From contig JAHCHG010000008.1 in NCBI GenBank assembly GCA_026129865.1, positions 1 to 64,000 on the forward strand: a stretch of 64,000 bases of DNA. Direction: 5' to 3'. The notes beneath the pieces are model-generated. The model saw only the letters and a program-made list of their open reading frames with translations, ran no database searches and was not told the origin of the DNA. This document shows positions 761 through 34,524 of this stretch, piece by piece (the first letter of the stretch is position 1; each line of letters starts with the position of its first letter). Source of the stretch: Pyrinomonadaceae bacterium. GTDB taxonomy: Bacteria; Acidobacteriota; Blastocatellia; Pyrinomonadales; Pyrinomonadaceae. The position numbers and the translations under genes are program-made.

Positions 761-3700
761 AAGCTGAATTTAACTCCAAGCCGCACGGAACGCCCGGTCT
801 GAAAGAGGTTCGACGCGTTGTAATCGTTTCTAATTCCCGACGAGCTGACGCCGCGCGCATTCAGATAGTTTTGAACAAATTGCCGAATCCCGTCTTTGTT
901 GAAAATGGTGTTGTAAACATCGGGCTGACTGCCGCAAGTCGTGCAGCCGCTTTGAGTTAACACGGTCGATCGGAAATCCGTAATGCTGATCGAGGTTTGA
1001 CGGCTTAGAACATTGCGTTCGTCGAAAAGATTGTGAAGAACGATGAAAGGCTCAAGCGAAAATCTGTTGTCCTGTCCGAAATTATATTGATGACTGACCA
1101 TCAGATCGGTTTCCGAAAATGTTCCCGTCCGCCCGAGGTCGCCGCGCCCGAAAAGGATCGATTGCTGTAAACCGTAAAGGCTGTACATCGTTGTCAATGG
1201 TGTGCCGGATTGAACCGTTGTAAATGCCGAAACCGTAGTGCGGTTTACCAAATTATCCGCCCAATCGAACACATAACCGCCGAAAGCCTTGAAAACATGC
1301 GGTCTGTCGGTCGCAAGCCTGCCGGAGTCCGAATTTCCGTTGGCGTCAAAACCGCTTGACGGAAGGTCAAAATATCTGGTCGAGTTCGGTGCCGAACGAC
1401 CGAGTTCGTCCGAACTCGTGAGACCGGAGTAAGTTCCTTTCAATCGGCTGTATGTGTAATTGACGTTGAAGAAAAATCTCGGATGTCGTTTATCGACAAT
1501 TACTTCTAAAGCGTCATACCGTCGTTCGGCTTTTGGACATGGGTAGCCGGCATCGCGCGTAACTCTGCACACAACACCTTGTCCCGGATTTCCGATAAGA
1601 CGCTGTTCGCTGCCCTGCGCGTTGAAAAATCCGATGTCCTCGATCGGGTTTTTCAGGTTTCTTCGAATATAGCGTCCCGTCAGAGAAGACAGATTGCCGA
1701 GCTTCTGTTCGAATCCGACGGTAAATTCTTCGGTTCGCGTCGGTTTTATTTCGGGATCGAAAAGCGTCGGGTCAAATGTTGGAATAATTATCTGGCTCGG
1801 GATAAAGAAGTTGAGCTGGCAAACAGACCATCCCATTGAGTTGATGATCGGACATTCGCCGAAAGGCTTGTCGATATTACCGCCGAGAATTCTTTCCGGA
1901 GTGTAATTGGTATACGACGCACCTCGCGAAGGAAGAATTTCAAAATAATCGCGATAAAAGAACTGCGACAAATTGCCTTGGAAAGCTTCGAACTTCAGCC
2001 GGTCGAAATGCCAGCCAAAATTGCCGAAAAGCTTTGTCTTGCCGTTACCTAATACATCGACCGCTGCGCCGACGCGCGGCGCGATCTTGTAGCCCCATCC
2101 AAATTTGAAGCCGTCATCTTTTCCGTAATCGGGCGTGTTTTCGTTCTCAAAACGAATTCCCAGATTTAACGAAAGCCTACCGATATTCCATGAATCTTGA
2201 GCAAACAGGGCTTGGTTCCTGTTAGACGATTCGCCGACCGAACCGAACCGCTGCAGAAATCCCGAACCCAGATTGCCCGGCGTCGGAGTCAGTCCGATCA
2301 ATGTGCTGATCGGAATGTTATAAAAAAGATTGACGATTCCCGCCTCGACATATCCTTCTGCAATATCGTTGGAAATATGGTTGTATTGGTACCCGAATTT
2401 GAAAATGTGGCGTCCGCCAAGTTCGATCCCGTAGAGCGAAGCGTCCGCGCCGAAAGTTGTGCGCTTAGAAACCTCTCGATCGCGGACAAAATTGTTTGAG
2501 GTGTTTTGAAAGCCGCGCGAACAGTTTGAGCCGGGAACGTTTGCAGGGCTGCCGGACGTGCTGCAAATGTATCGAGTGGTTCGCGGAAGCCCGTAACTGT
2601 TGAGTTTTTCGTTCAAAAACGAACGACCAGCGCGGAAATTGATCAAAAAGTTTTTTGTCGCGTCAATACTTACCTGCCCGTTGACCGTGTTCGCATTTTG
2701 TCTTCCGCCGCGCGTTGCGAGCAGCGCCGCACCGCGCAAACCGCCGAACGATTGCGGAACGCCGCCCAAGCCTTCTGCCGCAGACGGCAAAATTCCATCT
2801 TGATCGATCGGATTGTAGAGGAACGTTCCCATCATTCGAAGCCGTTTGACCGGCTGGGCATCCAACCGGAAATAGGCGAAATCGGTGCGAACTTTCGCTT
2901 TATATTCTACCGATTCCGTAACTGTACGATTCGTCGGATCGGAACTCGAAAAGTAACCGATCGTCCGCTTATTCGAATAGATCTGCGGCGAATAGGATCC
3001 GAAGAACCAGAATTTTTCCTTCAAGATCGGACCGCTGAGAGTCGCAGACGGAAAATAAGCGGTTGAATCGTCCTTGTTCGGCTGAAAAAATTCGATCTGT
3101 CCGGCGCCTGAACCGAAGCGGCTCAGAATCAAGTTCGGTCTACCCTGCAGTTTTGCGGGCGAGAGCGAAAAGCCAAAATTTCCACGCCAATTATCGTTGC
3201 CGCCTTTCGTTACAACGTTTATAACGCCTCCGAGCGCGCCGGAAAATTCGGCGTTTATTCCGGCGGCATTGACCTGAGCTTCTCTGATGAGTTCAAACGG
3301 CAGTTCGTTGTTGGCGTCCAACTCGCCGCTGCGAAAGTTCGTGACTTCCTGTCCGTCAATAAAAAACGTATTGTCCGAGCCCGAGCCGCCGTCGATTTGA
3401 AACCCGCCGACGAGCGGTTCCGAGCGAACGTTCGGAATGAATGTTAAAAGCGAGGGGAAAGTTGTGCCGACGGGAAGTTTTTGAATCCGAGGATGCAGAA
3501 ATGCGTATCGGAGATCGGGTGATGGACCAGTAAATGAATCTTTACTGTACGATTTGGGATGCCCAAATGTTGGAATCTCCAATACAATCGCCATTTGTGT
3601 GCGGGAATCGCTATAAACGTCGACTTTGAAAATGCCGGTGATGAATCCTAAGCTAGAAACCCGCAATTCATAGGTTCCTGCCGGAATCGCGGGTAGAATG

Positions 3701-33797: not shown

Positions 33798-33842
33798 AAT
33801 AAAAAGAAGGCGAAACCTTGATCGCTCAAGTGCTTCACCTTC
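33798..33842 (-). terminator. Rho-independent terminator of the candidate ncRNA
   Basis: On the minus strand GAAGGTGAAG...CTTGA pairs with TCAAG...TTTCGCCTTC around a 4-base loop, and TTTTTATT follows. It lies between the ncRNA body and obgE. Confidence 0.8.
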
Positions 33843-34318
33843 TCTTATCCTTTGAAAGAATACCGAAGTATTCTAAAGGGGTTTGGCAATTTTCACATGT
33901 ACACGCTACTTGTTGCCGGTTTTTGTATCCCGAGAAAACTCGCGGCGAGCAATTCCCGGTCAGCAATTCGATCTAACTTTCGTTCGACCGCTGTGCCTCT
34001 CTCAAAACACATTGCCGATAGGTTTTTGTTGTGGTGGCTTTTCCTCCACCGCCGGTTACGTGCCCGGCAACGAGGCTTATCAGAATAAACCGATAAGCGG
34101 CGTCGCTCCCTTTTGGCGGTTCCTTTCCAAAAAGTGTTGTCCGTTTTTATCCGAACAACTCGAAAGATCATTTCTGGTCTTTCTTAAGCCAAGCCTTTCG
34201 GCTTCGATCCGAAGCGTCATAGCAGCTTATTTCCGTCTTCTGCTGCTCTCAGACATCGCGTCGCCGCGTTGTCCGCCGCTCTCCGGCTCGGTCAAAACAC
34301 CGTAATGTTTTTGACTTA
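33799..34318 (-). ncRNA. Candidate structured noncoding RNA, about 520 nt, unassigned
   Basis: The 916-base obgE-rpmA interval holds no credible protein but a dense series of hairpins on the minus strand. A strong promoter precedes it and an intrinsic terminator ends it. Perfect or near-perfect stems include 34291-34315, 34221-34246, 34201-34215, 34162-34183, 34136-34159, 34111-34132, 34075-34098, 34051-34068, 34033-34050 and 33858-33873. The last is capped by a UUCG tetraloop closed by C-G. I looked for RNase P (GAGGAAAGUCC, ACAGAA), tmRNA (tag, CCA end) and SRP RNA (GGAAG...AGCAGCC) signatures and found none. The positions of both ends are inferred. The family is unknown to me. Confidence 0.7.
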
Positions 34319-34325
34319 TGAATGG

Positions 34326-34353
34326 AGTTTACACCCGTTTTTTTGGAAGTCAA
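34326..34353 (-). promoter_or_regulatory. Sigma-70 promoter of the candidate ncRNA
   Basis: On the minus strand TTGACT (34353-34348) and TAAACT (34331-34326) are separated by 16 bases. The predicted start is near 34318, directly before the first hairpin. Confidence 0.65.
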
Positions 34354-34406
34354 GTAGAAAATACTTTAACTATCTCATTGATTTTACTGAATTTAGGTGG
34401 CTGGTC

Positions 34407-34524
34407 TGTGGAAAACTTATCTACGCCGCTGTGGAAAAACTTGTGGAAAATCGACGAACATTTTGGAATGCCTACTTTATAAATTTCAGCACAAAGCGCG
34501 TTCAACGCATGCGCCTGTGGAAAA
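34407..34524 (+). promoter_or_regulatory. Cluster of DnaA-box-like sites
   Basis: TGTGGAAAA occurs four times on the same strand (34407-34415, 34430-34438, 34442-34450, 34516-34524). Each is one mismatch from the DnaA box TGTGGATAA. A weaker TTATCTACG lies at 34417-34425. An AT-rich stretch of about 70 bases follows (34541-34610). The layout resembles an origin or a DnaA-regulated site, but no origin-typical gene (dnaA, dnaN, rpmH) is in the window. Confidence 0.4.

Follow-up and report, generated by a model that had tools for sequence, protein, structure and literature searches.

The window, the 64,000-nucleotide stretch of DNA analysed here, encodes on its minus strand, at positions 33799 to 34319, a structured noncoding RNA of about 520 nucleotides. 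The gene is defined by its homologues and their alignment, by its predicted fold and by covariation along the full length of the molecule. The RNA fits no known family; its broad type, the large structured RNA whose biochemistry is not established, is already known. As far as searched, the RNA family and its association with a cluster of DnaA-box motifs are new. The best explanation, which we hold with fair confidence, is a new, family-restricted, trans-acting large RNA with its own promoter and terminator and a probable coupling to DnaA; the RNA would probably serve as a scaffold, possibly as a homodimer, in replication or growth.

Along the minus strand, rplU (35332-35042) and rpmA (34943-34660) are followed by an intrinsic terminator belonging to rpmA (34641-34606), an AT-rich stretch, the RNA gene and obgE (33752-32697), which is preceded by a promoter-like site of its own (33780-33752). 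The initial annotation had placed an uncharacterised, independently transcribed structured RNA here. Its interval is correct to within a few bases, rplU-rpmA (35332-34660) and obgE (33752-32697) are indeed the flanks, and the description is supported by the lack of an Rfam match, by covariation, by the conserved promoter and terminator and, as to transcription, indirectly by RNA-virus contigs with fragments of the RNA. The separation of rpmA from obgE by the RNA, which it also pointed out, is present in the window but is just one among several contexts and is not diagnostic.

The RNA is predicted to start at A34319 or A34317, and its 3' end is the end of the terminator U tract. A sigma-70-type promoter (34326-34353, minus strand), already proposed in the initial annotation, consists of a -35 box TTGACT at 34353-34348 and a -10 box TAAACT at 34331-34326, separated by a 16-nt spacer. 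Promoter-type sites in that region taken alone are at chance level (2 found, 1.7 expected); in 62 of 83 homologous loci, however, the corresponding position carries a TTGA[CT]-type -35 box followed by a TAnnnT -10 box, as against 16 of 637 control windows. The intrinsic terminator, also anticipated, is a hairpin with a U tract at 33799-33845; a simple terminator scan did not list it, and the alignment supports it, the U tract being conserved in 79 of 81 homologues. Conservation thus supports the prediction that the RNA is transcribed from a sigma-70-type promoter of its own and ended by its own terminator. A conserved A/T-rich element, TTAAAGTATTTTCTACTTGAC (34349-34369, minus strand), abuts the -35 box; as a signal shared by a regulon it was rejected, since a genome-wide search with up to 3 mismatches found no second site and returned just the RNA locus. 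In genera g3 and g10 (e.g., L020, L023, L026 and L030) the conserved sequence AAAATAAAACACACAAAAA, directly ahead of the -35 box, takes the place of DnaA boxes.

The minus-strand RNA folds with -199.9 kcal/mol, z = -8.1 against dinucleotide shuffles; for the opposite strand z = -5.6. In the alignment, G-U combinations make up 11.2% of cells and A-C plus C-A 2.6%, a fourfold excess of wobbles over mismatches which identifies the minus strand as the RNA strand. The consecutive stable hairpins noticed on one strand in the initial annotation, including the CUUCGG and terminator hairpins, are real, and the covariation in homologues that it proposed to look for is extensive: on a tree of 81 homologues, over the whole length of the RNA, 450 compensatory double changes fall in the 135 consensus pairs, 96 of which have at least one, compared with 15-48 for slid pairings and a mean of 20 and a maximum of 43 for 300 random re-pairings of the same columns. 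An alignment of the core (30 sequences) contains both-sided changes in 20 of 30 pairs, and 94% of cells pair; these values are reached by none of 500 shuffles, and slid versions pair 24-55% of cells. A stricter tree-based all-pairs null flags 3 pairs, all within the structure; because this null is over-dispersed, event counts are compared with slid and shuffled pairings instead.

Read from 5' to 3' on the minus strand, the RNA begins with a hairpin at its very start, followed by a multibranch domain (34205-34290) in which a closing helix, 34290-34281 paired with 34214-34205, surrounds two hairpins, with compensatory events in the closing and inner helices. Next come the hairpin AAGCC-GAAA-GGCUU (34191-34204), whose GAAA loop is invariant (81/81), a variable hairpin, and a hairpin (34136-34159) with the near-invariant loop GGAUAAAAAC, which is kept in 75 of 81 homologues and whose stem accumulates up to 17 compensatory events in a single pair. 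The alignment of 81 homologues then delineates a hairpin (34109-34134) with a self-complementary loop hexamer (34123-34118), and a further hairpin closes at 34101-34072, before the near-invariant core. This most conserved part, which runs from GCCUCGUUGCCGG to CGUAACCGGCGGUGGAGGAAAAGCCACCACAACAAAAACCUAUCGGCAA (34012-34080), comprises two hairpins and invariant single strands, and its 65 near-invariant nucleotides hold the single strand ACAACAAAAACC. A closing helix identified by compensatory events, 34017-34012 paired with 33966-33961, encloses a variable domain (33961-34017). Two more hairpins lead to the CUUCGG tetraloop hairpin (33859-33872), supported by the alignment and by compensatory events and present where a UUCG loop had been described, and then to the terminator. 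At one locus (L008) the 5' part, i.e., the promoter and the first domain, is absent and the DnaA-box cluster abuts the rest, through either a deletion or an assembly fault.

Of the 119 genomes of the window's family (Pyrinomonadaceae by named matches), 82 match R1, a covariance model of the 150-nt core; they are spread over 19 of 29 genera. The RNA is single-copy in all R1-positive genomes except two, G006 and G152, which have two copies on different contigs, maybe because of the assembly or a mixture of strains. The homologue search by sequence that the initial annotation had suggested, run as a blastn-type comparison with relatives, gives significant matches (E below 1e-9) in about 37 family genomes. 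Among 396 genomes spread over the phylum, R1 matches are confined to Pyrinomonadaceae. The exact core motif, searched in 84,980 species, matched 41 contigs, all of which also match R1; 40 are titled as Acidobacteria or one of its subgroups (Pyrinomonadaceae, Blastocatellia, Chloracidobacterium or Aridibacter) and one just as 'bacterium'. Phage and plasmid records contain no match. A putative distant homologue in another family of the class (L162 in G065, 23.9 bits) was rejected because it maps to the 3' end of the coding sequence of a GTPase, judged rsgA-like from its translation, and the weak R1 matches L163-L169 are regarded as chance. The RNA was not found in several genomes of the family with a completeness of 90% or more, and it is therefore neither universal in the family nor essential in these members.

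Comparison with described RNAs places it in no known family. A cmscan of the whole 64-kb window against 4227 Rfam families gives no match at the gathering score, and relaxed E-values yield no credible match around the RNA; a scan of 16 homologous loci finds none over the RNA and one spurious microRNA match outside it. The comparison with Rfam 15 took in OLE, GOLLD, ROOL, group I and II introns and SRP; the initial annotation likewise could not match the RNA to RNase P RNA, tmRNA, SRP RNA or a riboswitch with a familiar core. RNase P RNA, tmRNA and 6S RNA are free-standing structured RNAs like the one described here; the locus was rejected as any of them, as the same genome encodes its own copies elsewhere, all on other contigs (RF00010 at C16:345901-346292, 266.9 bits; RF00023 at C4:38755-39131; RF00013 at C1:177114-177325). 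The Acido-1 and Acido-Lenti-1 motifs (RF01686 and RF01687) are noncoding RNA candidates from Acidobacteria (PMC2864571), and the RNA does not match their Rfam models. A protein-coding gene was likewise rejected: the longest closed ORF varies across homologues from 27 to 117 aa in the sense and from 32 to 160 aa in the antisense direction, core lengths differ by non-multiples of three, and a search across the homologues found no conserved reading frame. Open-access full texts searched for the RNA do not describe it.

The genes around the RNA change from genome to genome. Many genomes have it between rpmA and obgE; elsewhere its neighbours are HIT-domain, glyoxalase and EamA genes, an acetyltransferase with a cupin, an ABC permease, or genes of no recognised kind. 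At L096, L121 and L122, genes for MacB/FtsX-type ABC permeases adjoin the RNA, intervening between it and obgE in the first two of these loci. Since the contexts vary, the RNA acts in trans, or at least not on its neighbours.

What accompanies the RNA across these different contexts is a cluster of DnaA-box motifs, an element that the initial annotation did not contain. Four motifs TTTTCCACA, recognised by motif match and by conservation upstream of the RNA, lie on the minus strand at 34407, 34430, 34442 and 34516 (34407-34524). They are the only four TTWTCCACA sites in the 64-kb window and fall within 118 bp, on the upstream side of the -35 box at a distance of 54-171 bp. In cyanobacteria TTTTCCACA serves as the DnaA box (PMC4674748), and it fits TTWTNCACA, the consensus used for E. 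coli (PMC12371093). Over 82 loci, 157 such motifs occur in 15.6 kb upstream of the RNA and 5 in 315 kb of flanking sequence, a 636-fold enrichment; one or more motifs are present at 61 loci and two or more at 50, and their spacings recur. About a quarter of the RNA loci, mainly in genera g3 and g10, are without boxes, and the link to DnaA is therefore not universal. Because the promoter region usually carries the cluster, transcription of the RNA is probably coupled to the amount or the nucleotide state of DnaA. From the conserved motifs we infer DnaA binding at the upstream region. A fuller version, in which DnaA binds the boxes and switches on a self-dimerising RNA of about 520 nt that controls replication or growth, is tentative.

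The cluster might instead be a locus for titration or switching of DnaA, like datA or DARS, with the adjacent RNA gene unrelated to it. The boxes are clustered with repeated spacing away from the replication origin, as this explanation would have it, and at 54-171 bp upstream of the -35 box they are beyond typical activator sites. The joint occurrence of cluster and RNA in different contexts is, on the other hand, unexpected for unrelated elements, and in genera g3 and g10 the RNA occurs with no boxes beside it, so an independent titration locus is conceivable but unlikely. E. coli datA, DARS1 and DARS2 also have clusters of DnaA boxes outside oriC in noncoding DNA; here, by contrast, a conserved gene for a large RNA goes along with the motif cluster.

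In the preferred reading, that of a trans-acting large RNA probably coupled to DnaA, a catalytic or scaffold role, which the initial annotation gave as usual for large RNAs this dense in helices, may apply. Judging from its architecture, the RNA would probably act as a folded scaffold, alone or with protein, and possibly as a homodimer joined by its self-complementary loop, in a role that is not universal and may be linked to replication or growth. The loop hexamer (34123-34118) reads UGAUCA in 38 of the 81 homologues, GGACCC in 17, GGAACC, the hexamer found in the window, in 12, GGUACA in 4, UAAUUA in 3 and GGAUCC in 1. Of the 81 homologues, 73 have pairable bases at positions 1 and 6 and 80 at positions 2 and 5, and among the 62 unpaired six-column windows the hexamer ranks first for self-complementarity; compensatory events total only 4, with 3 at positions 1 and 6 and 1 at positions 2 and 5. 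Self-complementarity of the loop in most homologues suggests that the RNA forms a kissing homodimer; the pairing could be a local extension of the hairpin. Kissing contacts between identical subunits are seen in known large RNA oligomers (PMC12286853).

An indirect indication of transcription comes from viral sequences. The core motif matches two levivirus-type IMG/VR contigs, L125 and L126, one with genes for a phage maturation protein and an RNA replicase and the other with a gene for a phage maturation protein, as identified by Pfam. Each contains no more than a fragment of the RNA (3162-3474 of the sense strand in L125 and 202-390 in L126), in sense orientation, with abrupt junctions and 90% identity to cellular copies. 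Leviviruses are RNA phages with no DNA stage, and the molecules joined in these contigs were therefore RNA or cDNA. Most simply, the contigs are chimeras that include an abundant cellular transcript, and real viral recombinants are possible; the fragments indicate that the RNA is probably transcribed. Positions 1-201 of L126 are neither the RNA nor evidently levivirus. A pattern match in a third viral contig, L127, was rejected, as this contig does not contain the RNA.

Were the RNA a regulator that base-pairs with mRNAs, possibly with Hfq, its A-rich single strands would bind Hfq or the targets. AACAAAAAC matches the A-R-N pattern, the terminator ends in a U tract, and Hfq is encoded in 109 of 118 family genomes, which is necessary for an Hfq-dependent RNA but not sufficient. 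The usual Hfq-dependent RNAs are, however, far smaller and less conserved in architecture, while this one has about 520 nt, long-range helices and a near-invariant 65-nt core, and a base-pairing regulator of this type is rather improbable.

A DnaA-box cluster with nearby T-rich stretches is also what an origin might display, and RNA II of ColE1, a plasmid replication primer, is similar in length to the RNA. A chromosomal or secondary replication origin at this locus, with the RNA serving it as a linked primer or regulator in the manner of RNA II, is nevertheless very improbable. In two near-complete relatives (G117 and G097) the RNA lies within a region of constant GC-skew sign that extends for hundreds of kb to either side, and contig C20 of the window's own genome has no skew turn at the RNA; in G097 the sign reverses at the ends of the contig, about 0.8 Mb from the RNA. 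The locus was rejected as the chromosomal oriC, in spite of its motif cluster, because of this constant skew sign, and the RNA finishes at a terminator. A search of about 1.2 Mb of G097 did not find dnaA.

The window and many relatives have the RNA on the 5' side of obgE and in the same orientation, a position that a cis-acting leader or riboswitch of obgE would account for. The RNA ends, though, in a conserved terminator, obgE has its own promoter-like site downstream of it, and the downstream genes are not constant among relatives; the changing contexts show that the RNA is not a leader of obgE, and this explanation, already refuted by context, deserves next to no credence. A sponge for CsrA/RsmA of the CsrB type, with GGA in hairpin loops, is highly improbable and largely refuted: GGA does occur in several conserved loops (GGAUAAAAAC, AAGGAAC and AGGAAAA) of an RNA with its own promoter and terminator, but it is hardly enriched (14.2 per RNA, 11.7 expected), and CsrA is present in just 12 of 118 family genomes and absent from most carriers of the RNA (e.g., G002, G008, G009, G015 and G016). 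CsrB, CsrC and RsmZ resemble the RNA in being free-standing and hairpin-rich with some GGA in loops, and differ in consisting of repeats where the RNA has a unique conserved core.

The closest parallels to the trans-acting large RNA favoured here are the large ornate RNAs OLE, GOLLD and ROOL, for which cryo-EM structures are available (PMC12286853). They too are large bacterial RNAs that combine numerous conserved helices with conserved single strands rich in A, may form homo-oligomers through kissing loops, and have a biochemical function that is not established. The RNA described here has no sequence or structure match to them in Rfam, belongs to a different taxon, was not found in phage or plasmid records and has a promoter region with DnaA boxes.

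Bacteria have few large RNAs of such deep structure, and every new family has pointed the way to unsuspected biochemistry. The DnaA boxes, located away from the origin, connect this RNA, in a specific way that can be tested, with a known regulator and with the cell cycle; connections of this kind were largely lacking for OLE, ROOL and GOLLD when they were discovered. The RNA resides in a family of soil bacteria represented here mostly by metagenome assemblies, and if its proposed control by DnaA is true, it would constitute an RNA arm of the DnaA regulon, without known counterpart.
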